Notes: generated from the letters alone by a model not told the origin. 41,231 bases of DNA from Thermoanaerobaculia bacterium (GCA_027069135.1 JALXFE010000478.1:1-41231), one strand, 5' to 3'; positions 1 through 40,683 are shown, counted from the stretch's first letter. Numbers and translations are program-made.

Positions 1-1572
1 TGGTCCCTGCTCGGAGAAAAGTGGGGTCTGGTCTTGGCAGGACTCCTCCTGCTGCTGCCGGGACCGGCCCGAGGTCAGGACGGCGATTGCAATCTGGACG
101 GTGTCGTCAACATCGTCGACGCGCTCCTGACGGCTCGGCACGCTTCCGGGCTCGACACGATTACCGGACCGCGACTTCGGATCTGCGACGCCAACGCGGA
201 CGGACAGGTGGACATTCTCGACACCCTTGTCATCGCACAATTTGCCGCCGGCGTGGGGGTGACTCCGACGAGCCTCGTGTGCGGAGACTGTGACGCGAGC
301 GGTGGGGCAGTCGATCCGGGACTGGACTTCGCGGCGCTTCAGAGCCGCTTGTTCATCGGGGTGAGCACCGCTCAGCATGCTGCCTGTGACACCAACGGGG
401 ATGGGTTTCTCGATCTTCGGGACCAGGCGAATTTTCTGGATTCTGCCGGTGCCTTCGGACCCCACAATTGTCTGACCTGCGGTGATTGCGATTTGAACGG
501 CACCGTCGATCTGCAGGATGTCTTTCTGGCAAACGGGTCCTCGGTGATCAACGTCCCGGCCTTCGATGCCTGCGACATCGTGGCCTGGCCCCCGGCACCG
601 GCACCGGCCGCCGTCAACGCCGTCGATGGGAGCCAGATCAACTGGTGGAATCTGGGTCTGCTCCCAGATCTGACGTGTATCGATCCCCGATCGGCATCTC
701 CCAAGACCCTTTTCACCAATGGGCAGCCCGGCAGCTACTGCGTCCAGGGCTCCGCAAACGGCACGCCTTGGACGTTTTCCATTCAGGGGCCGGGGGCGCT
801 GCCGATGCCAGCAGCATTCTCCTATCCAACTCAGCAAGTGGCCAGCGGAGGGCCAGCGGCCCTCATCGCTGCCTGGGTGGATGCCATCAACGGGACGGTT
901 GGAACACCCTTCACGGCCGTCAGCGTGGGGGCTTGCATGGGGGTCTTTGTAACGGGAACGATGCCGCGGGTGCCGGGGACGGTCATCATCGACGGCTGTA
1001 TCCCCCATCTTTCCCCCACCGGCTGCCCCTTCAACCCGGACCTCGTCGCCGATCCCCTGCTCGGTGACGAGGATGGCGATGGCATCTCCGACGGCGACGA
1101 GATCTTCGGTGGTGGCGACCCGCTGGATCCGGATAGCGACCACGACGGCGTGGTGGACGGAAAGGACAACTGCCCGACGATTCCCAACGACGACCAGAGC
1201 GACCGGGACCAAGACGGCCGGGGCGACGTCTGTGATCCGGCCAACCAGCAGCCGACGATCTACGACGATTTCGGGATCACCAACCCGGATCGAACGCTGG
1301 CCCTCGACCCCCTGGCCAACGACAGCGATCCGGACGGGAATTTGGACTCCGAAAGCCTGAAGGTGATCGGTCTTCCTGAGCACGGCCTCCTGGCAGTGGA
1401 TGAAGGTCTGCTGATCTATCAGCCGGACGGAAACTATGTCGGGGCCGTGCGTGGGGAGTACCAGATCTGCGATACCGAGGGCGAGTGTGGTCAAGGCATC
1501 GTCGTGATCGCAGTGCTGCCTTCGGGCGGAGACGAGGGCGGCGGTGGCAATAACGGTGCAGCGGATCCGTAG
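1..1572 (+). CDS. Secreted protein with dockerin-like, thrombospondin type 3 and cadherin-like repeats (5' end outside window)
   Basis: The frame is open from base 1 and the hydrophobic run before PARGQ looks like the end of a signal peptide, so the true start probably lies left of the window; a TTG at 34 is the first possible internal start. After cleavage come several dockerin/EF-hand-like calcium loops (DGDCNLDGVVNIVDAL, CDANADGQVDILDTL, CDTNGDGFLDL, CGDCDLNGTVDLQDV). Next is an Asp-rich thrombospondin type 3 segment (about residues 345-405: DEDGDGISDGDE, DSDHDGVVDGKDNCP). Last is a cadherin/Ig-like module (about 410-500) with the typical LANDSDPDGNLD and 'hGLLAV...YQPDGNYVG' signature. 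All of this fits an extracellular calcium-stabilised structural or adhesive protein. No enzymatic domain was seen. It ends in a low-complexity Gly/Asn tail and is followed by a strong terminator. Confidence 0.8.
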   Translation, partial: WSLLGEKWGLVLAGLLLLLPGPARGQDGDCNLDGVVNIVDALLTARHASGLDTITGPRLRICDANADGQVDILDTLVIAQFAAGVGVTPTSLVCGDCDASGGAVDPGLDFAALQSRLFIGVSTAQHAACDTNGDGFLDLRDQANFLDSAGAFGPHNCLTCGDCDLNGTVDLQDVFLANGSSVINVPAFDACDIVAWPPAPAPAAVNAVDGSQINWWNLGLLPDLTCIDPRSASPKTLFTNGQPGSYCVQGSANGTPWTFSIQGPGALPMPAAFSYPTQQVASGGPAALIAAWVDAINGTVGTPFTAVSVGACMGVFVTGTMPRVPGTVIIDGCIPHLSPTGCPFNPDLVADPLLGDEDGDGISDGDEIFGGGDPLDPDSDHDGVVDGKDNCPTIPNDDQSDRDQDGRGDVCDPANQQPTIYDDFGITNPDRTLALDPLANDSDPDGNLDSESLKVIGLPEHGLLAVDEGLLIYQPDGNYVGAVRGEYQICDTEGECGQGIVVIAVLPSGGDEGGGGNNGAADP

Positions 1573-1632: not shown

Positions 1633-3378
1633 TCAAGGGTCCAGCGGTAGGAGGATCGGCGTCGCATCCCAGAAGTAGCTGAGCTTATTCTCGGCCGGAT
1701 CGTACCAGCTGAGAAGGGACACCAACGTCGGTTGACGGCTTGGATCGAAGCTCTGAACCTGACCATGAAGGTTCAAGAAGGCCACGTCGCCGTTGCCGAT
1801 ATGGTAACGATCAAGCTTGCTCAGGGGGAGATAGAGGAGGTCCGGTGGAAGCCGAACAAACATTTCCTCCAACTCCATTCCATCGAGAAGCTTCCAACCG
1901 AGGTGAAGATCGATCTCCAGATTCACTTCGACCACCCCCGAGGCGGAGCCGAGCCCCTGCGTCGGCAGCAGGTCGCTTCCGCAGCACATGGAGCAGGGGA
2001 CGCAGGGATCCGGCTCCGGTGCGGGTTTGAGCCGGTCGGAGACCATCTCCACGAGGCTGGGGGAGAGAAAGGGGTTCTTCGAAGGGTCGAGAGGCTCGAG
2101 CTCGACGGTGATGGAGAGGCCTAGCCCTTGACTCGAACCGCAATTCGACCCGTCCTCAGCCAGCGCCGCCATCATGCGTTGACCGGCGCTCGCGGTTCGG
2201 CTGGTGAAGGTCGTAGCCCCGTGCGCAAGGGCGAAAAAACAGGGGGAGCCGGCGGTACAGACTTGCCGTGGTTGCCAACCCGGGCCGCTCCCCAGGGCAG
2301 TGTACACCGGAGCCGGTTGGAAAAGCAGAGCCTCCATCAACCAGCCGCTGAAGAAGGCGCTGGCGAAAGAAGATCCGGCGGGGGGCATCCACTCGACGAA
2401 ATCCCCAGCGATGAAGGCGTTGAGGCAAAGGGCTTCACCGGGCATCAAAGCCTGGGGAAAGTCCAGGGCCAAAGGGGTCTCCCAAGAGGGCACGACGACA
2501 TGGTTTGCGAAGAATTGGGCGAAATCCAGGGCCCCGACGGAGACGACGTGCTCTAACCAGGCTGGGAAGAGGGGTTCCTGATGGTTCCCCGCCGCTGCCA
2601 CCAGAACGCTGCCGGGGGCGCCGTTGTCCCCGGGCCGGGCCAGGTGGTTCAACAGGAGGCTGACCTGGCAGCTCAGTCGGTCTTCAGGACATTGGATACC
2701 CCGCGGATCGTCGATTTCCCGCATCCGCCCGAAACTCATATTGATCACCAGGGGCGGAGGGGTCCCTTGATCCACCGCCTGTGCCACGGTGGCAAGGGTC
2801 ATGATCAGATCAGCTTCGGTGATCGCCGGGCTGGGTAGCACATGGCTCTCGAGGGCCACGAGGACCGTTTCGGTAGCGAGGCCCATCGTGGTTCGGGTCA
2901 CCCGGTCGACGGTCCGCCCGTGCCAATCGTCCCAATCGATGATCGCAACCCAATCTCCTTGAATCGTGCTCAAGGAATTCGAGCAGGCGTCGCCCGGTCG
3001 GCAGTCGATGGCGGCCGGTGCCGGCCCCGGGTGGGGGAAGGCCTTGACGTTTTCGTTACCGAAGGCGAGGGGGTTCGCGCACAGTGGGAGCTCCTGGGTA
3101 TCGAAGTAGAAGACCCCGTAGGTCCCCGCCGGGGCGCTGAAGGTCGATTCGCCACCCAGGTTGCAAACGTCCGGATAGAGGGCCCAATAGATCCGGATCC
3201 CCGGACCCTCCGGTGGGCCGGGATCCTCCGGCATCTCCGGGGTCTTCGGTAGATCCGGGACCTCCGATGGAACACCCGGTTGGGTCAGCTTGTCCTCAAG
3301 GCCGGAAAGGGCCGGTGGATCAGCGATCCAAAGGCCCAGGATCCCGGCGGCCAGGATCAAAGCGGTGATTCGTCTCAT
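1633..3378 (-). CDS. Secreted subtilase-like (S8-fold) protein, last gene of the CHAT cluster
   Basis: 581 residues. The start is fixed by an AGGAGG six bases before ATG. Residues 1-20 are a signal peptide, followed by a Pro-rich linker to about 60. A subtilisin-like core is visible: strand VAIID with Asp148, HGRTV with His153 (HGxxV-like), VINMSFG (about 211-217), VLVAAAGNH with Asn265 at the oxyanion position, and PPAGSSFASAFFSG with Ser337 in the GTSxA position. Normal S8 enzymes have tens of residues between the catalytic Asp and His; here the gap is only 5, and the Pro after the Ser motif is missing. It may be a compact divergent peptidase or an inactive relative. Several Cys (100, 126, 132, 230, 237) suggest disulfides outside the cytoplasm. 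About 230 residues follow the core and were not recognised. Its 5' end overlaps the gene before it by 59 bases, suggesting co-transcription. Confidence 0.65.
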   Translation of the reverse strand: MRRITALILAAGILGLWIADPPALSGLEDKLTQPGVPSEVPDLPKTPEMPEDPGPPEGPGIRIYWALYPDVCNLGGESTFSAPAGTYGVFYFDTQELPLCANPLAFGNENVKAFPHPGPAPAAIDCRPGDACSNSLSTIQGDWVAIIDWDDWHGRTVDRVTRTTMGLATETVLVALESHVLPSPAITEADLIMTLATVAQAVDQGTPPPLVINMSFGRMREIDDPRGIQCPEDRLSCQVSLLLNHLARPGDNGAPGSVLVAAAGNHQEPLFPAWLEHVVSVGALDFAQFFANHVVVPSWETPLALDFPQALMPGEALCLNAFIAGDFVEWMPPAGSSFASAFFSGWLMEALLFQPAPVYTALGSGPGWQPRQVCTAGSPCFFALAHGATTFTSRTASAGQRMMAALAEDGSNCGSSQGLGLSITVELEPLDPSKNPFLSPSLVEMVSDRLKPAPEPDPCVPCSMCCGSDLLPTQGLGSASGVVEVNLEIDLHLGWKLLDGMELEEMFVRLPPDLLYLPLSKLDRYHIGNGDVAFLNLHGQVQSFDPSRQPTLVSLLSWYDPAENKLSYFWDATPILLPLDP

Positions 3379-4294
3379 GGTCTTCCTCCTCGTACGATGG
3401 TCGACCCCCGGTCCGTGACGGGTCCGTGACGGCAGGGGTCGGAGTTAGGAGGTGGAGAACCAACGGATGGAATCGTCGACCGCGACGGATCGTCGGAGTG
3501 TCCCCGCCGGCCGGAACCCGAGGTAGCTTCCGGGGTAGATCGTCGCCCCGGGCACTGACCACGAAGAGCCGGTATGAACCCGGCCTAGATCCCACGAGAG
3601 CCTCCGCCGGTGCTCGGATGAGGACCGCCCCGGGGCGGCGCCGGAGGAGGATTCGAGGATCCTCCGGAACGCGCTCCAGGGAGGCGCCGACCTCTCGGTA
3701 GAGGGCGATCTGAACCTCCCCTTCGGCCCGTTCCCGGACCACGGCCGTGATCTTCACCGAGGAATCCGCAAACGCGGAGGCGGACCCTCCCTCCTCGGAA
3801 CCGTCCCGCCGCTGCGCCAGAGCCGAGATGCTCACATCGTAGATCGGTGGTGGCTCCGGCCGAAGCAGGAAGCCACCGAGGATTACGAGGATCACCGATG
3901 CTGCCAGGAGTGCCCCGAGGCGTCGGCGCCCCAGCCCCTCCCGACGTTCGACCCCGAAGCGATCGAGAAGCTCCTGCCGGAGGTCCCTCGGGACCGTGAC
4001 CTCGTCCAGAGCTGCCTTCCCCTGAAGGCGTTGCCGGGCGGCGGGGTCGCCGACCAGCCGGGCTTCGACCCAACGCCTTTGGGTGGCCGACAACCGACTC
4101 TTGCGGTAAGCCTCGAGCAGGTCTTCCGAGAGCAGGTCCTCCGAGAGCAGATCCTCCGAGAGCAGATCCTCCGTCAGATCCGGAAGCAACGTCGCTGAAT
4201 CCCTGGATTCCTCGGGAGGAGCGTCCTGCCGAGCGGCCGGATCCTCGATCTCGGTGAGCTTCCAGAGGATTTTGTCTCGGTCTTTGCCTCCCAT
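3320..4294 (-). CDS. Single-pass anti-sigma-factor-like membrane protein
   Basis: 324 residues from ATG 4294, which has a GGAG 8 bases upstream; a TTG at 4300 overlapping the previous stop is too close to that site. The cytoplasmic part (1-125) has an acidic LLSED repeat (about 44-58), then a helical stretch (LLEAYRKSRLSATQRRWVEA, RLVGDPAARQRLQ) that resembles the 'xLSPEERxxVExRLxxDPxxR' helices of anti-sigma domains but has no Cys/His zinc ligands. One membrane helix lies at about 126-145. The outer part (146-324) is a beta-rich domain that I do not recognise. Its place between sigma/CHAT and the subtilase-like gene suggests it controls the sigma factor or passes an envelope signal to it. 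The role is inferred from topology and position only. Confidence 0.55.
   Translation of the reverse strand: MGGKDRDKILWKLTEIEDPAARQDAPPEESRDSATLLPDLTEDLLSEDLLSEDLLSEDLLEAYRKSRLSATQRRWVEARLVGDPAARQRLQGKAALDEVTVPRDLRQELLDRFGVERREGLGRRRLGALLAASVILVILGGFLLRPEPPPIYDVSISALAQRRDGSEEGGSASAFADSSVKITAVVRERAEGEVQIALYREVGASLERVPEDPRILLRRRPGAVLIRAPAEALVGSRPGSYRLFVVSARGDDLPRKLPRVPAGGDTPTIRRGRRFHPLVLHLLTPTPAVTDPSRTGGRPSYEEEDHETNHRFDPGRRDPGPLDR
4121..4173 (-). repeat. 15-bp coding tandem repeat (LLSED)
   Basis: Three and a half near-identical 15-base units (gtcctccgagagcag type, plus-strand reading) lie in frame in the anti-sigma-like gene and encode repeated LLSED. This is a likely slippage site; copy-number change by whole units would keep the frame. 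Confidence 0.85.
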
Positions 4295-4296
4295 CG

Positions 4297-7083
4297 TCAA
4301 TTCTCCACACGCCTAGTTGATAGTCCGGTGTCGGCGGCTTTGTCCCTTCCTTCTCCGTGGCCCGCGCCGACCAGGATCAGGTTGGACCAGCCCGAGGCCG
4401 GATATCGCTCTCGAAGGAGCGAGAGGGCGGCCCCAAAGGCTGCCGGTACGTCGGAATTCTCGGCCAGATGTCGATAGAAGCGCCGGTTGAAATCCCCGAG
4501 CAGCCGATCCGCCACCGTCGAGCGGCTGGCGACCACCCAACCGACCCCACGTTGAGCGAGGAGGCCCGCCAACCCTTCCAAAGCGCTATCCCCGGATTCC
4601 CGGGCACCACCGGTGAAACAGCCGCTCAAGTTGATGAGCTCCCGGGGGAACCCGGTGTCGAGGAAATCTCCGATGGTCAAGGCTCCGTCGGAGAGTCCCA
4701 ATCCCGAGAGGGTGGGGTAGGCCGGGTCGAAGCTGCCGTGGGCGTCGATGTGCAGGAAGGAGGCGGAGGGCAGGGCTGCGACGACCGCGGAACGGGTAGC
4801 CTCCGGCCCAAAGAGGATCCTGGCGGCGGGAAAGAGAGCTCGGAACGAGCTTCGAGCTGCCGGGCTGCTCGGCAGAGTCCGTTCCGGATCGACCACGAAA
4901 AGGGGTTGCAGCGGCTGCCTGGCCCCCTTCTCGGCACCCTTCCCAGTGAGCTCTTCGGCGACCAGGGCCGGGTGCCGGGCGACGGTCGTCAAATCCGCCA
5001 GCCAGAAGGCGACGCCATCCTCGGCGATCGGCAGAGCGGAGAAAGGAACGGCCTGGAGAATGCCATGGAGGGCGTACTGCGATACCGAGGGGACGGCGAC
5101 GCCGTTGCCGGGAGCGAGGGCTTGGGCCAGGGGGCGGGTCAGTGCCCGCCAGGTTTCGTCGTCCATCTCACCTTCCCGTTGCGCCTGGGCGATGCGCCGA
5201 AGGCGGCGCCGAAGGTCGAGTCGGAGCCAGGCGGTATGGCGGGCCTCGATGTTTCCGTCCGCTTGCCGGGTGAGCAAGATGATCTCGTCCGGCAGGGCGA
5301 AGGCCCGGTAATGAGCCCCCTGGGTGGGCCGCCGGAGCCGCGGACAGCCGACCCGAAGAAGGTCGCGGTGCACCTCTTCGAGGGCCTCCCGGAGGGAGTC
5401 CCGCATCGAGTCCAACCCCTCCTGACGTCGGGGAGCCAGGGGAGGCTCGGTGCCGGCGAGGCGGTCCAGAAGGTTCTGCCGTCGGGTCTCCAGATCGACC
5501 CGTTTTCCGGAAGCCTCGTCGCAGCCACCACCGACCTCACCGGCCAGGTCGTCCAAAGCCTGGAGGATCCGCCAGGCCTCCTGGGGCCGGCCGTGCTCGA
5601 TAGCGGCGCGGGCAGTTCGATAGTAGTCGTCGGTCCGCTGGCCGGGAGCCACCCGTAGGTCTTGGTCGGAGTTTGGGGAGGCCGAGGCATGGTGTAGGAG
5701 GGCCTGGTGGAAGGCGCTGAGGGCTCTTTGCGGTTGAGAGGCTCTCCGGTGGGCCTGGCCTAAACAGCTCCAGGCCCAGGCCGAGACCCGGGACGCAGCC
5801 CTGGGCCGGGTAGCCTCCTGGCAGATCCGGACGGCCTCCGAGATCCGACCCTCCCGCAAGGCCCACGAACCCTCGATCACCTTTGCCCAGACCGAGAGGG
5901 TCTGCCCTCGGCCTTTCCTCGAAGCTCCCGTCAGAAGCTTTCGAGCCTGGGCCAAAGCGGAGCTCGGATCTCCGCCGACCCGAAGCTGCCAGAGCGCGCG
6001 GTTGATCCGAAGGTTCGCCGCCTCGTCCGGCGAGCCGTTGGCCCTCGCCGCCGTCAGGAAAGAGCCGGCCGTTTCGGTCTCCTTGGTCCCGGCGTCGGGA
6101 TCGACCAGGAGGTACCAGGCGAGAAGGTCGCGAGCCAGGGATTTGACAGCGGGCCGGCAACCCCTTCGAGCGCATTCCTGGAGGACCCGTCGAAGCCGCG
6201 AAGCCGCCTCGACGTTGGCACCGAGGCGGTGGAGGATCTCCGCCTGCTGGGTCGCGATGAGAAGGCCTACGTCGGCGCCGGTTCGTTGGGCGAGCTCCTG
6301 CCCTCGATCCAATTCCATCCAGGCCTGTCGGTGTCGGCGGCGGTTCGCGGAGACCTTGGCCCTCATATAAGCGACGAAGCTCGCTTCCGTCGTGGCCGCC
6401 GGTTGGTCGAGCCACTGGGGGAGATGTGCCAGGCGGCGATCCACCTCGGCGTCGGCCCCGGCCTCACCTCGGCGGCGAATCTCATCGATGACGACCAGGC
6501 GAATCTGCAGAGCGAAGAAGAGGAGCCCTCGGCTCTGCGCATCTTGCGCCAGGGCTTCAAGTCGCCGCGACAACTCCTTTGAAGGAAGCGTCGCGAGATT
6601 CGAGAAAAGGTCGTTCTTGCGTCGACGAAGCTCTCCCAGCTCCGGTGGCGGAGGGAGCCAGCGGCCCGGGAAGCAGGGCAACCGAAAGCGCCGCTGGTCA
6701 AAGGCGTCCTCCACGGTTCCACAGATGGACACGTCGCCGACGGGGGGAACCTCTGCTGGCAGATCCGTCAGGAAACACAGGCTGGATCCCGTGCGCAGGG
6801 TAGGCTCTACGAAAACCGGCCTGGGGACCGTGCCTTGGTCGAGGTAGATGTGAGCCCGCCACTGGCTGGTGTCGAGAGCCACCGGAGCCTGCAGGCAGAC
6901 GCCGATCTTCCCATCGTGACCGAGCCATTTCGGGAGGAGGGATCCGTCCGGGAGGAGCTCGACCTCCCGGTGTCCTCGAGCCGTCCATCGCACGCCCTCC
7001 GGCAGCGGTCCAGCCGGAGGGGGCGCGCAACCCGGGAGGAGCGTCAGCAGGAGGGCAAGGAAGGGTAGGCGCAGATCGATCAT
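4297..7083 (-). CDS. TPR-CHAT caspase-fold protease, predicted lipoprotein
   Basis: 928 residues from the ATG at 7083, which overlaps the sigma stop as ATGA (translational coupling). A longer in-frame start ten codons upstream would spoil the signal peptide. The N-terminus is a lipoprotein signal with lipobox LLPGC (Cys19), so the protein is predicted to be tethered outside the cytoplasm. Residues of about 140-540 are helical repeats of TPR type (for example LGQAHRRASQPQRALSAFHQ). The C-terminal third is a CHAT domain: ALHGILQAVPFSALPI, then the dyad His782 in FLHIDAHGSF and Cys822 in INLSGCFTGG, then GVGWVVASRSTVAD and WSNLILVGAG. Both catalytic residues are present, so activity is likely. 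CHAT proteins are caspase-like cysteine proteases (separase/caspase clan), commonly fused to TPRs. Substrate unknown; the neighbouring secreted subtilase-like protein is a candidate partner. Confidence 0.88.
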   Translation of the reverse strand: MIDLRLPFLALLLTLLPGCAPPPAGPLPEGVRWTARGHREVELLPDGSLLPKWLGHDGKIGVCLQAPVALDTSQWRAHIYLDQGTVPRPVFVEPTLRTGSSLCFLTDLPAEVPPVGDVSICGTVEDAFDQRRFRLPCFPGRWLPPPPELGELRRRKNDLFSNLATLPSKELSRRLEALAQDAQSRGLLFFALQIRLVVIDEIRRRGEAGADAEVDRRLAHLPQWLDQPAATTEASFVAYMRAKVSANRRRHRQAWMELDRGQELAQRTGADVGLLIATQQAEILHRLGANVEAASRLRRVLQECARRGCRPAVKSLARDLLAWYLLVDPDAGTKETETAGSFLTAARANGSPDEAANLRINRALWQLRVGGDPSSALAQARKLLTGASRKGRGQTLSVWAKVIEGSWALREGRISEAVRICQEATRPRAASRVSAWAWSCLGQAHRRASQPQRALSAFHQALLHHASASPNSDQDLRVAPGQRTDDYYRTARAAIEHGRPQEAWRILQALDDLAGEVGGGCDEASGKRVDLETRRQNLLDRLAGTEPPLAPRRQEGLDSMRDSLREALEEVHRDLLRVGCPRLRRPTQGAHYRAFALPDEIILLTRQADGNIEARHTAWLRLDLRRRLRRIAQAQREGEMDDETWRALTRPLAQALAPGNGVAVPSVSQYALHGILQAVPFSALPIAEDGVAFWLADLTTVARHPALVAEELTGKGAEKGARQPLQPLFVVDPERTLPSSPAARSSFRALFPAARILFGPEATRSAVVAALPSASFLHIDAHGSFDPAYPTLSGLGLSDGALTIGDFLDTGFPRELINLSGCFTGGARESGDSALEGLAGLLAQRGVGWVVASRSTVADRLLGDFNRRFYRHLAENSDVPAAFGAALSLLRERYPASGWSNLILVGAGHGEGRDKAADTGLSTRRVEN

Positions 7084-7667
7084 GTCGCCCTCAGACCCAA
7101 CTCCTCGAGGCATTTCACCAGCGCTGCATCCAAGAGCTGTTTGAGCTTATAGGTGGCTCGCTTCGACCATCCGGTCGTCGCCGCCACCTCCGCCGGTGTC
7201 AAACCCGAGCGGAATCGGAGCTGAAAATATAGATAGCTGCGGTCCCCTCGCCGGAGCAGGCAGCGAGCCAGGCGCTCCAAAGCATCCCGGGCCAGGACCG
7301 GCTCCTCATCCCTGGCCTCGGTCGTGGCCTGATGGTCCCGGAGGAGGGTGGTGGGGTGACGCACGAGGGAACGGCGCCGATTGGAGGCGATCCCGCAGGC
7401 GGCGCTCCACAGAAACTGAGAGAGGCTCGCTTCCGTCGGGACTCCGGGACGGTCCAGGAAGCGTTCGAGAACCCGCGCCTCCGGGCGAAGGACATAGACG
7501 AAGGTGTCGTGGAGGAGATCTTCCGCTTCCAGACCCAGACTGTTCTGGAAGCGCTGCCCCAGACGTCGCATCAGGCCCGGAGCAAAAGTATCGTAGATCC
7601 AGGCGAGGGCGTCCCGGTCTCCCGCCAGGACGCTCCGGATCCTCGGACCGATAGATGTAGGACCCAT
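7080..7667 (-). CDS. ECF-like RNA polymerase sigma factor
   Basis: 195 residues from ATG 7667. The frame stays open 105 codons further upstream, but that stretch is low-quality sequence antisense to the decayed peroxidase, while the conserved fold begins right after MGPTS. Region 2 is seen at about 15-60 (AWIYDTFAPGLMRRL, EAEDLLHDTFVYVL) and region 4 at about 145-190 (GLTPAEVAATTGWSKRATYK helix-turn-helix). It heads the minus-strand unit and its stop overlaps the CHAT start (ATGA). It probably directs transcription of its own cluster; the anti-sigma-like gene two places downstream would be its regulator. No clear promoter was identified upstream. Confidence 0.85.
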   Translation of the reverse strand: MGPTSIGPRIRSVLAGDRDALAWIYDTFAPGLMRRLGQRFQNSLGLEAEDLLHDTFVYVLRPEARVLERFLDRPGVPTEASLSQFLWSAACGIASNRRRSLVRHPTTLLRDHQATTEARDEEPVLARDALERLARCLLRRGDRSYLYFQLRFRSGLTPAEVAATTGWSKRATYKLKQLLDAALVKCLEELGLRAT

Positions 7668-7768: not shown

Positions 7769-8895
7769 ATGTCACGCCGAGCTCCGCATCGCGAGGCCCG
7801 TCAAGCAAGGCTATCCGTCTGGGCTCGCCGCCGGAGGCCGACCTAACCCCCCCCGGAACAGATTTGTTCTCGCGATCAGCTCTGTCGTTGCTCTCACTCT
7901 TCTCCTGATCCTTCCGACAGAAACTGCGGATGCTATCTTTGATACCGCTCAAGGGCCCTTCCCCAAGAGAGGGTGAGTGCAACTTGAGTGATCCGTTTTT
8001 TGATGTCGTCCGTCATAAGCTCGGGCGCGATCGAAATATCGGTCCGGGTACCCTGAAAAACACGCAGGTTCCCGAGCCGGAAAATCTTTCGGAATTCGTT
8101 CGGGATCGTGAAGCTGCGATCCTCCTTGGTAAAGTACTATTCTGGGATATGCAGGTCGGAAGCGATGGTGTTCAGGCCTGCGCGACCTGTCACTTCCGGG
8201 CCGGGGCCGATCCGCGATCCAAGAACCAGCTCTCTCCCCGGGGGCTCGCCGACACCACCGGTGTTATCGACATCCGGGGAGCCAATTCACGGCTGACTCT
8301 CGATGATTTCCCCTTTCACCAACTCGCCGACCGCTTTGACAGAACCTCTACAGTCGTCAGCGATACGGACGATGTGGTGTCATCCCAAGGTGTCCTTCTT
8401 ACACTCTTCGAGTCGGTTCGGCCAGGCGAGAGAAAGGATGAAGGATCTCTGATTCCCGATCCTGTCTTCAACGTAAACGGCAGCAATACCCGCCGGGTAG
8501 AGCCGCGGAATACCCGCACCATGATCAATGCGGTGTTCAAACTCCGGAACTTCAGGGACGGTAGGGCGGATTGAAGACGATCCTGGACTCGGGGGTCTCG
8601 ATCCGTTCGGGAATCCCTTGTCCATCGCCGTATGGATCTTGGAATTGGTCGGTTGGAGCTTACGGATGAAGAGATCGATGCCATCGTGGTCTTTCTCTTA
8701 ACCCTCACCGACCAGCGCGTGGTGAATCAATCCGCGCCGTTCGATCATCCGGAGCTTCTGGTGCCCAACGGCCACGAAGGGGATGAGTTCAGCGTCGACG
8801 ATGAAGGCGGCGCTGCAAAGACGGAGTTTCTCAGAATCGAGGCCGTCGGGCGCGATGGCGGCCCGCTACCCCCAGGATTCCTCGAAGGCGTGTAG
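7769..8895 (+). pseudogene. Decayed cytochrome c peroxidase/MauG-type gene
   Basis: A perfect AGGAGGT (7754-7760) precedes ATG 7769, but the frame soon stops. A typical signal peptide (RFVLAISSVVALTLLLIL...ADA) is in another frame after an 8-C run at 7847-7854. The mature protein (NLSDPFFDVVRHKLGRD...) resumes in a third frame after about 7975. The first haem site ACATCH and surrounding GSDGVQACATCHFRAGADPR are intact. At about 8574 the frame breaks after NAVFKLRNFRDGRAD, and only the family's C-terminal end remains (LELTDEEIDAIVVFLLTLTD... to 8895). The middle, which in this family carries the second CxxCH, is missing. Several frameshifts plus a large internal deletion mean no functional dihaem enzyme. 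The intact relative would be a periplasmic dihaem peroxidase-like protein. Confidence 0.8.
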
Positions 8896-36467: not shown

Positions 36468-39035
36468 ATGAGAGTCACCTCCCAATCAAATCCTTCCTCC
36501 CCTTGCGGAGAATCTGGCCCGGCGGTCTGGCTAATTCTCGCGGTTTTGCTCTTCCCTTCTCTCGAAGTTTTCGGCCTCGAGGCCACCGCCTCATCCCCGG
36601 TCCTCTTCGCCGGCCGGACCTTGACGGAAGCTCTGGGCCTCCTTGAAAACGAGGGCCTTCGGATCGTTTTCAATAGCCGGGTCGTCAGCGAAGATCTGCG
36701 GGTCGTATCGCGGCCGACGGCTACGGATCCCCGAGGGATCCTCCTCGAGCTCCTCGAGCCCCACGGCCTGATGTTTCGGGAGGGCCCCGGGGGCCGGCTG
36801 GTGGTCGTACGGGAGGAACGGCTCCGTCAGGTCCGGGGCTGGGTGAGGAATCAGGAGACCGGAAATCCAATTTCGCAGGCGACGCTGGAACCGTCTGGCA
36901 CGGCCCCGACGCGGACGCGGGAGGACGGCTCGTTTGTCCTGGAGCTCGCCGTCGACGAGGCTTCAGCGGTCGATGTCCAGGCCATCGGCTTCGCTCCCCG
37001 CCGCATCGAGATCCTCAAGACCGGGGTTCAAGATCCCCTCGTCTTCGAGCTCACCCCTCTCCCGCCAACGTTCGATGAGATCGCCGTCACCCCGAGTCAG
37101 CTCACCTTGAAGAGGCAGCGGGCGAGCGATCCTTTGAGCCTTGGTAAGGACCTCGCCCTCACCCTTCCAGGCTTGGCGGACGATCCGATCCGAGGGCTGA
37201 AAGTCGTGCCCGGCATCACCGGCGACGATACCTCCGCTCGGCTCAGTGTTCGTGGTGGCCCCGTTGACGGAACGCAGCTATTTCTCGACGGCCTCGAGCT
37301 TCTGGAGCCCTTTCACCTCCAGGACTTCGGCGGTGCGTCCTCCATCGTGGCCCCGGAAGCCATTGAGTCCGTCGACATCATGACCGGCACGGTTCCGGCG
37401 GAACACCGAGGACGCTCCGGCGGTGTGGTCGACATGCACAGCCTCGTGCCCGAGGGAAAAACGCGGACGCGGCTCGGAGTCGGCCTTCTCGATAGCCATC
37501 TCCTACGGAGCGGGCGGTTTCCCCAGGATCGGGGCTATTGGTTCGGGATTGCCCGGTTGGGGACCTTCGACCCCGCCCTGCGTTTCGGCGGTCGTCGAGA
37601 TCAGCCGAATTTCTGGGATCTGTTCGGCAAGGCCGAGCTGCGCATCGGCGAAGCCCGAACCCTCACGGCAAGGGTCCTGGTGGCGGACGATCACCTCGAG
37701 GACTTTACCCGGAGCGGAGAGGACGCTGTGGAGGCTCTGGGGACTCGGTACCGGAGCAACTATCTATGGGGTAGCTACTCGGCCACGGTCTCGGATCGGC
37801 TTTTTTCTGAAACCACCCTTTCCTACACGCTGTTGGACCGGACACGTCTAGCTGAGGAAACAGGCCCGGAAATCGACTTTGTTCTCGACGATTCCCGCGA
37901 CCTCAACCAATTTGGTCTGACGCAGGATCTCAGCTATTTCCTGAATCCCCGGCACTCTCTGGCGATGGGATTGGACGTTCGCCACCTGAATGCCCGGTTT
38001 CGCTACAGCAGCGAAGTGGAGACTACCGATCCGTTGGCGGTGATCCGAACCGGGTCGGCGTCCGGGGCTTTTGTGGGAGATCTCCGGGAAGAGCAGTGGA
38101 GCCTCTACGCTTCCGATCTCTACCGTCCCTTCGAATTCTTGACCCTCCATCTGGGCCTCCGCTTCGAGGAATACACCCTCACCGATCGTTCGGATCTGAC
38201 GCCCCGGTTGGCTTTGGCTTTTTGGTTGCCGGGGGAGCGGGTGCTGCGTCTGTCCTGGGGCAGTTTCGTACAGAACCAGAGGCCCTACGAGTTACAGTTG
38301 ACCGACGGTGAAACCGAATTTGCGGTGGGGGAGCGCTCGGAGCAGGCGATCCTGTCCTTCGAACAACCCTTGGCTCGGAAACTCACCCTGAGAGTCGAGG
38401 CCTACCGGCGAACGACTTCCAATCCTCGGCCTAGATTCGTCAATCTGTTCGAGTCCCGGACCCCGGTGCCCGAGGTGCAGAGCGACCGGGTGAGAATTTC
38501 CCCGGAACGCAGCGAAGCCGAGGGTGTCGAACTTCTTCTGCGCAGTGCCACGAAAAAGCAGAGCTGGTGGATTCATTATGCCCGGTCCGAATCCCGCCAT
38601 CGAATCGCCGGACGGGAGTTCTCGAGCTCCGTAGATCAGCCTGACGCCTTTACCCTTCAGTACGAGCGCCGCATCGGACGACGTTGGAGGGCGGGGGCGG
38701 TCTGGCGCTACCACTCCGGCTGGCCGACGACACCGGTGACCGCGGACGAAGAACCGGGCGAAACCGGCGAGCTGATCCTTCGTCCCCGGCTCGGAGAGCT
38801 TTTCAGCGATCGCTTACCGACCTATCATCGACTGGATCTGCGGGTCAATCGGGTCTGGCGTGTCGGGAGGGGCAAGCTGGAAACGTACGTCAATGTCCAA
38901 AACGCCTACGACCGGAAGAACGTTCGGGGCTACGAGTTCGAGTTCGTGAGTGGCCCAGAGGATCCCATCGTCGATCGCGAGGAGAAGCTTTGGCGCGGGC
39001 TTTTCACGTCCGCGGGGATCAGTTGGTCGTTCTGA
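36468..39035 (+). CDS. TonB-dependent receptor with N-terminal STN signalling domain
   Basis: 855 residues from ATG 36468; a TTG at 36441 would add nine residues. A signal-type hydrophobic segment lies at about 19-36. An STN domain (about 42-115, FAGRTLTEALGLLENEGLRIVFNSR) is followed by a carboxypeptidase-regulatory-like beta domain (about 120-200, VRGWVRNQETGNPISQATLE) and a plug with LKVVPGITGDDTSARLSVRG, LFLDGLELLEPFHL and ESVDIMTG. A long beta barrel (about 320-855) ends in an aromatic-rich strand (FTSAGISWSF) typical for outer-membrane insertion. The substrate cannot be read. It converges with, and overlaps by 17 bases, a FecR gene followed by an ECF sigma gene. STN plus FecR plus sigma is the surface-signalling layout of FecA systems. 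Confidence 0.9.
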   Translation: MRVTSQSNPSSPCGESGPAVWLILAVLLFPSLEVFGLEATASSPVLFAGRTLTEALGLLENEGLRIVFNSRVVSEDLRVVSRPTATDPRGILLELLEPHGLMFREGPGGRLVVVREERLRQVRGWVRNQETGNPISQATLEPSGTAPTRTREDGSFVLELAVDEASAVDVQAIGFAPRRIEILKTGVQDPLVFELTPLPPTFDEIAVTPSQLTLKRQRASDPLSLGKDLALTLPGLADDPIRGLKVVPGITGDDTSARLSVRGGPVDGTQLFLDGLELLEPFHLQDFGGASSIVAPEAIESVDIMTGTVPAEHRGRSGGVVDMHSLVPEGKTRTRLGVGLLDSHLLRSGRFPQDRGYWFGIARLGTFDPALRFGGRRDQPNFWDLFGKAELRIGEARTLTARVLVADDHLEDFTRSGEDAVEALGTRYRSNYLWGSYSATVSDRLFSETTLSYTLLDRTRLAEETGPEIDFVLDDSRDLNQFGLTQDLSYFLNPRHSLAMGLDVRHLNARFRYSSEVETTDPLAVIRTGSASGAFVGDLREEQWSLYASDLYRPFEFLTLHLGLRFEEYTLTDRSDLTPRLALAFWLPGERVLRLSWGSFVQNQRPYELQLTDGETEFAVGERSEQAILSFEQPLARKLTLRVEAYRRTTSNPRPRFVNLFESRTPVPEVQSDRVRISPERSEAEGVELLLRSATKKQSWWIHYARSESRHRIAGREFSSSVDQPDAFTLQYERRIGRRWRAGAVWRYHSGWPTTPVTADEEPGETGELILRPRLGELFSDRLPTYHRLDLRVNRVWRVGRGKLETYVNVQNAYDRKNVRGYEFEFVSGPEDPIVDREEKLWRGLFTSAGISWSF

Positions 39036-40023
39036 CCTCTTCGACGATCAACTCAGAACCCACGATCTGCGCGCGGAGGCCGCTGCCTTCCATCGCCAAC
39101 TCCAGGCCTTCCCACAGACCGAGACCGTCGATAGAACCGTGCAAGAGAATCTCTTGAGCGCTGGTCTTGGCGGAAGCGTCGACGAAGCGTAGGTCCCAAC
39201 CCCCTTCTCGGGCCGTCCGTTCCAAGAGAGCCTCCAGGGTGATGCCTTCGATTCCCAGGGGGGGCGCGGTCGTGAGAGTCCAATCCCAGGATGCATCGTC
39301 CGGGTGGTGATCGAGGCGCTGGGAAGAGCCATCGGCCTTCAAGATCAACTCTTCACCGCCGACGATGCGGAAGTCTTGGAGCTTGCCGCCACGTCGGTTC
39401 GAGAGCTCGACTCGGCCCTCCCGCACCCGCACCCGCAGGTCGTCCGCCAGAAGACGGACTTCATATTGGGTTCCGATCTCGTGGACGTCGCCGAAGGCCG
39501 TCGAAACGACGATGCCCGGACCGCCCCTGTCGCCGGAATCCGAGTAGATGGCTCCGGCCAGGAGTTCCACGCGGCGGTCCGAGGCAAAGCGCACCCGGGA
39601 CTCTTCATCCAGACGGAGGGAGCGGGAGCCTTCGAGGCGGAAGGAGATGCGTCCCCCGGGGCCGGTCGCGATTTGCGTTCCCGGCAGGATGCCGTCCTCC
39701 GGGGAGCCGCTGATCTCTACCGGGCCAGAGCTCTGCCAGGCCATCGCCCAGGGTGATTCTTGTTCCTGCGAACCTGGAAGAAAGAGCCAAAGAGCGAGGA
39801 TTGCGGGCACCAAGGCGGCTGCTGCCGCCCACCATTCCCAGTGGCTCTGCCGGGGTTCCGTCTCCCGGCGGGTCGAGGCCTGCCAGCGGTCCGTCACCGT
39901 TCGGCGCAGGCGGTCGAGGTCCGCCGGGAGGGCCTCAGGAGGACCTGCGCTAGAGAGTAGGCGGTCGAGGATCGCCTCGTCCTTTTGGCTCCAAATTTTT
40001 CTGGGTTCATCGTTACGTTTCAT
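39019..40023 (-). CDS. FecR-family anti-sigma/sigma regulator
   Basis: 334 residues. N-terminal cytoplasmic part (1-60, DEAILDRLLSSAGPPEALP), one membrane helix (about 62-83, WEWWAAAAALVPAILALWLF), then the FecR domain: LPGTQIATGPGGRISFRL, SLRLDEESRVRF, VELLAGAIYSDSG, VSTAFGDVHEIGTQYEVR and VREGRVELSNRRG. The C-terminal part (about 260-334, GITLEALLERTAREGGWDLRF) resembles an STN/secretin N-type fold like that in the receptor. It lies 12 bases downstream of the sigma gene. It would pass the receptor signal across the inner membrane to the sigma factor. Confidence 0.9.
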   Translation of the reverse strand: MKRNDEPRKIWSQKDEAILDRLLSSAGPPEALPADLDRLRRTVTDRWQASTRRETEPRQSHWEWWAAAAALVPAILALWLFLPGSQEQESPWAMAWQSSGPVEISGSPEDGILPGTQIATGPGGRISFRLEGSRSLRLDEESRVRFASDRRVELLAGAIYSDSGDRGGPGIVVSTAFGDVHEIGTQYEVRLLADDLRVRVREGRVELSNRRGGKLQDFRIVGGEELILKADGSSQRLDHHPDDASWDWTLTTAPPLGIEGITLEALLERTAREGGWDLRFVDASAKTSAQEILLHGSIDGLGLWEGLELAMEGSGLRAQIVGSELIVEEVRTTN

Positions 40024-40035
40024 GACGATTCCGTT

Positions 40036-40683
40036 CTATGCCTTAGAGGGCTTTTGCCGTCCGTCGAGAGCTGTCCAGATATCGGCCCCCACGCCCATGG
40101 ACCTGAACCGGCTCTTGAAAGCTGCCCGAGCCCGAGAGAGCCTCGATTCCGCGGCCTTCGCCGTGATCTCGAGTCGCTTGCCGATCTCCTCGACCGAGAT
40201 TTCGTCCAGATACTTCCATTGAAGAACCTCTCCGTGACCGCCGGGCAGGGTATCGAGAGTTAGGTGAACACGCTCCGCCAGCTCTGTTGCCCGAAAGTCT
40301 CCCTCCGGTGTTCGGATGGCCCTAAAGGGCAGCGCATCTTCCAAGATTGCTTCGTCCAACTCCACCGAGCTGGGGCTGCGGGCCCTCACTTTGCGCTGCC
40401 GCAAAATTTCGTAGTGACAACAGGTGCACAGCCAAGTAAAAAGCGACGCTTCCCCGCGATAGGTCTCGATCCCTGCTACGGCGCTACATAGCGTCGTCTG
40501 CACAACTTCCTGGGCAGCCTCCAGATCTCCTCCCAATCGCTTCAAGGCCCAACGCACGAGACCCTGGGCGTTGCTCTCGAAAAACTCGTCAAAAGCCTCT
40601 CGGTCACCGCCCCGCAGACGATCCACCAGAGCCTTGTCTCGATGAAATCGCTGCCTCGTCACTCCAAGCCCCTCTACAGTCAT
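40036..40683 (-). CDS. ECF sigma factor paired with FecR
   Basis: 215 residues from ATG 40683. A GTG at 40662 has a better purine-rich site (GAGGGG) and may be the true start (208 residues). Region 2: LVDRLRGGDREAFDEFFE, LEAAQEVVQTTLC, ASLFTWLCTCCHYEILRQRK. Region 4: LPGGHGEVLQWKYLDEISVE, then GKRLEITAKAAESRLSRARA. The double Cys near 'CTCCHYE' is unusual but the fold is standard. It is probably held or activated by the FecR protein encoded next and would drive the receptor gene. Confidence 0.9.
   Translation of the reverse strand: MTVEGLGVTRQRFHRDKALVDRLRGGDREAFDEFFESNAQGLVRWALKRLGGDLEAAQEVVQTTLCSAVAGIETYRGEASLFTWLCTCCHYEILRQRKVRARSPSSVELDEAILEDALPFRAIRTPEGDFRATELAERVHLTLDTLPGGHGEVLQWKYLDEISVEEIGKRLEITAKAAESRLSRARAAFKSRFRSMGVGADIWTALDGRQKPSKA

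Follow-up and report, generated by a model that had tools for sequence, protein, structure and literature searches.

CHAT proteins are common and, to our knowledge, their substrates are mostly unknown outside CRISPR systems. Here we consider a module of four genes in a stretch of DNA from a Thermoanaerobaculia bacterium (GCA_027069135.1 JALXFE010000478.1:1-41231; all 41,231 nucleotides are called the window in what follows). The genes encode an extracytoplasmic function (ECF) sigma factor (SIG), a TPR-CHAT protease (CHAT), an anti-sigma factor (ASF) and a subtilase-like protein (SUB). In Craspase, one of the closest described systems, the cleavage of Csx30 by Csx29 lifts the inhibition of CASP-sigma (PMC10028731). 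In the other, from Myxococcus xanthus, DdvA is the transmembrane anti-sigma factor of DdvS, as the titles of its structures put it (PDB accession codes: 8rot, 8rw5), and DdvS is the regulator of an antiphage island in that genus (PMC12288465). The module in the window is tightly conserved and real, and is a new version of the already known CHAT-linked control of sigma factors: it would work like both of these systems and is a member of neither. We found no description of this four-gene set in the open-access literature, subscription papers being outside the search.

What the module shares with DdvA/DdvS is a linked ECF sigma factor, a transmembrane anti-sigma factor and the TPR-CHAT fold. DdvA reportedly has its periplasmic TPR-CHAT in the same chain, with an incomplete dyad, and is said to have been proposed to cleave itself. 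Here, in contrast, separate genes encode the TPR-CHAT and the anti-sigma factor, as they do in every complete relative of the module; in addition, CHAT has its His-Cys dyad complete and is putatively a lipoprotein, a subtilase partner is present and the anti-sigma factor has no zinc ligands. The likeness to Craspase is a TPR-CHAT protein linked to an ECF sigma factor and its inhibitor (PMC10028731). Unlike that type III-E system, the module has no gRAMP-sized protein, Csx30 or Csx31 that we can see, its CHAT protein is predicted to be secreted rather than cytoplasmic, and its inhibitor is a membrane protein. PADLOC gives no match to a gRAMP/Cas7-11 effector in the module; the type III CRISPR RAMP genes of the window's own genome (G000), a fragmented assembly, are on other contigs (C228, C366, C403), away from the module, in frames of at most 692 residues. 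Because a DdvA-type fusion and a gRAMP effector were both looked for and neither was found, we place the module in neither system. With RseA-DegS-RseP the module shares a membrane anti-sigma factor and a periplasmic protease that is proposed to make the site-1 cut, the difference being that this protease would here have a caspase fold, be lipid-tethered and be encoded in the same operon.

All the evidence on the module is computational. From the sequences we infer a transmembrane switch in which CHAT cuts ASF near Arg163 and so frees the sigma factor, a reading to which we give about an even chance. SIG would be held at the inner membrane by ASF, whose anti-sigma domain would be inside and whose beta domain would be in the periplasm, while CHAT would be a cysteine protease tethered by lipid on the periplasmic face. 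Upon a signal, CHAT would act as the site-1 protease and cut the juxtamembrane periplasmic segment of ASF, most likely after the invariant Arg163. An RseP-type intramembrane protease would then degrade the shortened ASF, and SIG would be released. SUB may be a secreted proenzyme in contact with ASF and CHAT, in the role of a sensor, a brake or an auxiliary protease.

A conserved four-gene module

The four genes overlap or abut on the minus strand at positions 1633-7667 of the window:

7080-7667, minus strand: SIG, divergent ECF sigma factor, 195 residues (domain match and family profile)
4297-7083, minus strand: CHAT, predicted lipoprotein TPR-CHAT protease, 928 residues (PF12770, AlphaFold2 model, fold matches)
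3320-4294, minus strand: ASF, single-pass membrane anti-sigma factor without zinc motif, 324 residues (NF052375 and profile)
1633-3378, minus strand: SUB, secreted pro-subtilase-like protein, 581 residues (PF00082, AlphaFold2 model, fold search)

SIG and CHAT overlap in an ATGA (7080-7083), ASF begins 2 bases past the CHAT stop, and ASF and SUB overlap by 59 bases (3320-3378). The four open reading frames and their overlaps are all as the initial annotation had given them. It had also read them as one unit of an ECF sigma factor, a CHAT protein facing the periplasm, a single-pass anti-sigma protein and a secreted subtilase-like protein, and each of these descriptions is borne out below, the side of the membrane for CHAT as a prediction.

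The order SIG-CHAT-ASF-SUB on one strand is found in 22 Acidobacteriota loci with all four genes. Among the loci that no contig end truncates there are three exceptions to it, and the partial loci, cut at contig ends, agree with this order. Since the same order recurs while the mean protein identity among the 22 loci is 29-44%, chance is excluded as the cause of the set. In each of the six pairings of the proteins the distances between loci are correlated (r 0.60-0.77; 0/2000 permutations per pair), which would be expected of co-inheritance and is no proof of contact. We searched for the family in 148 relatives, in 396 and 297 genomes spread across the phylum, and in GTDB contigs, and found it in Acidobacteriota only. 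One carrier record is labelled Deltaproteobacteria, yet its sequence is that of G001, which is placed in the window's own genus. The scan of GTDB contigs, with 13 loci found, used patterns drawn from one subset, so that the family may also occur outside Acidobacteriota. The window's own genome holds a second complete copy of the module (CHAT identity 32%), and Acidobacteria bacterium Mor1 holds four distinct ones. No fifth conserved gene was found around the module loci, the largest cluster of neighbours covering 5 loci.

Two of the three exceptions, L077 (6066-8903) and L080 (6672-9335), are lone CHAT relatives without any of the three partners, and in each the catalytic His and Cys are gone as well. 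They are the only close relatives that stand alone; the condition that the initial annotation had set as refuting its unit, most CHAT relatives lacking the other three genes, thus turned out the opposite way. In the third exception (G023), a single contig carries SIG and ASF at a distance of some 45 kb from CHAT and from a SUB whose core is deleted. The two lone CHAT genes bear on an envelope quality control in which CHAT and SUB would degrade damaged proteins, the sigma factor merely raising their expression. Secreted proteases under an ECF sigma factor are a common layout in stress responses, which speaks for this account; the CHAT dyad, however, is lost only in copies without ASF, which ties its activity to the anti-sigma factor, if in just two cases, and we think quality control very unlikely.

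The domain call for SIG is weak (sigma70-ECF match E 6e-7, under the cut-off), as are those for ASF and SUB, and all three are settled by profiles built from relatives. In the PDB, the SIG family profile finds RNA polymerase sigma factors and nothing else; most of them are of the ECF type, E. coli sigmaE (1or7) included.

The CHAT protein and its structural relatives

The match of CHAT to PF12770 (E 1.2e-24) scores 87.7 bits against a gathering score of 24, and its AlphaFold2 model has a mean pLDDT (predicted local distance difference test) of 81.7. Its parts are as follows:

7027-7029, minus strand: putative lipobox cysteine Cys19 (LLPGC), from the sequence
6649-7011, minus strand: N-terminal beta-rich domain, residues ~25-145 (DSSP of the model)
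5350-6645, minus strand: TPR superhelix, residues ~147-578 (model and PF07719)
4366-5151, minus strand: CHAT domain, residues 645-906 (PF12770 match)
4738-4740, minus strand: catalytic His782, kept in 32/34 copies
4618-4620, minus strand: catalytic Cys822, kept in 32/34 copies

The numbering of His782 and Cys822 in the earlier work is right for the 928-residue protein, and, L077 and L080 apart, each of the 32 copies keeps the whole dyad. Most CHAT relatives have a comparable N-terminal Cys, and four have a membrane anchor instead. In the beta-rich domain, Cys63 and Cys103 are present in every copy that covers it, and Cys121 and Cys137 in most. Because of the signal peptide with its Cys (or the membrane anchor) and the conserved cysteines across relatives, CHAT is predicted to lie outside the cytoplasm.

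The best solved folds for the CHAT model are DdvA, Csx29 and separase. DdvA, which the initial annotation did not mention, is the top Foldseek match (E 3e-15), with a VIA Z of 21.3 and a root-mean-square deviation (rmsd) of 5.2 over 512 residues; for Csx29 (7y84_C), Z is 28.1 and the rmsd 10.0 over 557. There is no direct sequence match of CHAT to either of them in the PDB, so the kinship rests on the fold.

With these nearest folds, an anti-phage or cell-death role by analogy to DdvA/DdvS or Craspase may be considered, in which the switch would turn on immunity genes; such a role is compatible with the cleavage of ASF by CHAT. It would fit the antiphage island governed by DdvS (PMC12288465) and the RAMP genes elsewhere in the own genome. 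The neighbourhood speaks against it: PADLOC finds no match to the module proteins, the genes next to 23 module loci show for the most part no relation to one another, and among 97 such neighbours the matches to defence models are few and largely generic. The defence context raised by the initial annotation thus finds no enrichment behind it. Analogy to DdvS, not the neighbourhood, is what would argue for defence, and we regard that role as unlikely.

The anti-sigma factor and the candidate cleavage site

Which protein, then, would CHAT cut? ASF consists of an anti-sigma domain free of zinc ligands, one membrane span and a periplasmic beta domain. It matches NF052375 below the cut-off (E 8e-5), and its profile gives weak matches in the PDB to ChrR (E 0.003) and 3hug_B (E 0.07) and no others. 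The latter has the PDB title of a Mycobacterium membrane protein, and we take it to be the anti-sigma factor of SigL. The N-terminal part of ASF by itself matches many other genes in the genomes searched. Two features of ASF matter here:

3863-3916, minus strand: transmembrane segment, residues ~127-144, with an Arg-rich cytoplasmic side (sequence)
3806-3808, minus strand: Arg163, candidate CHAT cut site, in LAxxR[SDG], kept in 32/32 sequences covering the position

Arg163 is the sole invariant residue of ASF outside the cytoplasmic anti-sigma domain; it comes soon after the span, and the loop behind it varies in length.

A residue of this kind is also seen in other anti-sigma-like proteins linked to CHAT. 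The own genome has two sets (L100:400-4900 and L102:2098-8256) of an ECF sigma factor, a zinc anti-sigma factor with a membrane span and a TPR-CHAT protein with a signal peptide, without a subtilase. The HxxxCxxC motif of zinc-binding anti-sigma (ZAS, zf-HC2) proteins, absent from ASF, is present in these two paralogues, and both have, by eye, an Arg at a similar place. A second TPR-CHAT clan (L196-L219; L147, L148, L155, L156), met through weak subtilase matches, comes from several Acidobacteriota families. Of its 24 loci, 19 have a sigma gene upstream of CHAT and 16 have the gene of a secreted subtilase directly downstream. Its small anti-sigma-like proteins often have the HxxxCxxC motif, and all 15 of them, judged by eye and leaving aside two spurious frames, have a hinge Arg between two parts, with Ser or Gly as the next residue in most. 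Cleavage after Arg is typical of clan CD proteases like separase and gingipain R. On the strength of this preference, the invariance of Arg163 and the hinge Arg of the other sets, we propose that CHAT may cut ASF after Arg163.

In the initial annotation CHAT might cleave either SUB or ASF. ASF is now the favoured substrate, since the CHAT dyad persists where the SUB triad is lost, the same genome also has sigma/anti-sigma/CHAT sets that lack a subtilase, and the single invariant basic residue at a hinge is in ASF; cleavage itself stays a proposal, and SUB as the target has lost ground.

Several observations weigh against the proposed switch. The conservation of Arg163 may instead serve the fold of ASF. 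In CHAT, Asp859, which we guess to bind the P1 residue, is Asn in three copies and Glu in one. An RseP-like protein is seen in the own genome only as a fragment at a contig end (C-terminal match E 1.7e-15). No promoter motif common to the SIG upstream regions, as a sign of autoregulation, was found, the gapped k-mer counts being no better than those of shuffles in what is a weak test. Finally, SUB occurs in every complete module, although it would be superfluous if CHAT simply acted on the anti-sigma factor.

The subtilase-like protein

SUB matches PF00082 (Peptidase_S8) with E 8e-4 and 19.3 bits against a cut-off of 21.8, which its relatives L137 and L133 exceed, and its family profile finds subtilisins and PCSK9 in the PDB. 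The protein begins with a signal peptide. The AlphaFold2 model (pLDDT 69.8) matches subtilisin folds with Z 15-19, pro-subtilisins up to Z 18.9, and contains a strand at 143-149 and helices at 152-165 and 337-352. It is divided as follows:

3034-3201, minus strand: propeptide-like domain, residues ~60-115 (proenzymes are the best VIA matches, their alignments starting at model residue ~60)
2191-2961, minus strand: subtilase core, residues ~140-396, with Asp148, His153, Asn265 and Ser337 (conservation and model)
1993-2004, minus strand: CVPC motif within a disordered linker; copies that have the motif keep both Cys (relatives' sequences)
1654-1932, minus strand: C-terminal beta domain, residues ~483-575 (model; unmatched in the fold search, which barely tested this domain)

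Like the S8 subtilases with a propeptide (Tk-subtilisin, PCSK9), SUB has the order Asp-His-Ser, an oxyanion Asn and a propeptide-like domain. It differs from them in the unusual closeness of Asp148 and His153, only five positions apart, in the CVPC linker and the C-terminal beta domain, and in that some copies are catalytically dead. The Asp/His/Asn/Ser set is kept in 26 of the 30 assessable copies. In three related copies Arg/Asp/Pro or Ala replace His/Asn/Ser, and in a fourth the catalytic core is deleted, while the CHAT of these genomes stays intact. With the CHAT dyad at 32/32 against 4/30 degenerate SUB copies, CHAT is the protease that stays constant, and catalysis by SUB appears dispensable in some lineages. 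An intact SUB-type frame of 415 residues, L138:8509-9768 (= L083), divergent from CHAT, keeps the N- and C-terminal parts and lacks most of the core. There is also a natural fusion of ASF and SUB, a single protein of 764 residues (L137:12749-15040 = L076:2653-4947), from which SUB would act on the periplasmic side of ASF.

These data can be read as a cascade, in which CHAT would cut the propeptide linker of SUB and the active SUB would be the site-1 protease that cuts ASF. The pro-subtilisin architecture with its low-confidence linker at residues 119-132, the presence of SUB in every complete module and the fusion, which shows that both proteins act in the same place, all favour such a cascade. 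It is hard to reconcile with the four degenerate copies beside an intact CHAT, and the SUB linkers contain no conserved basic residue that could be a CHAT site, the only one, Arg218, lying in the core; we consider the cascade improbable. SUB could alternatively be the output, the sigma factor driving the secretion of a protease and CHAT controlling the sigma factor in some other way. The second TPR-CHAT clan, with its sigma genes upstream and subtilases downstream, resembles such an arrangement, and its L148 CHAT protein has no visible signal peptide and therefore would not share a compartment with the subtilase. A plain secreted enzyme would account for neither the fusion nor the catalytically dead copies, and SUB as the output seems to us rather doubtful.

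Further genes

L102 has a further CHAT-like gene downstream, and L104 (G000:C625, also in the own genome) has several CHAT-containing genes within 20 kb. Directly beyond the module and convergent with SUB, window positions 34-1572 encode a secreted protein with dockerin type I, TSP3 and Big_9 domains. At 7930-8895 is a gene like di-haem cytochrome c peroxidases (CCP_MauG), beside a second short frame and possibly split or broken. Another ECF sigma factor, with a FecR-type anti-sigma factor, is at 39019-40683 and is unrelated to the module.

Implications

The strictly conserved sigma/anti-sigma/CHAT set names one probable substrate and one candidate cut site for a CHAT protein, and the dead-subtilase copies together with the ASF-SUB fusion raise a clear second question. 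Tentatively, and with some doubt, we suggest that TPR-CHAT proteases may form a general class of proteolytic sigma switches that cut a paired anti-sigma factor at one conserved Arg hinge. Its architectures would be the periplasmic lipoprotein, the cytoplasmic form, the fused form of the DdvA type and the RNA-guided Craspase, the last as a version captured by CRISPR. If the switch proposed for this module is true, regulated proteolysis of anti-sigma factors would extend to a periplasmic protease of the caspase fold, and the module would hint at the origin of Craspase and DdvA.

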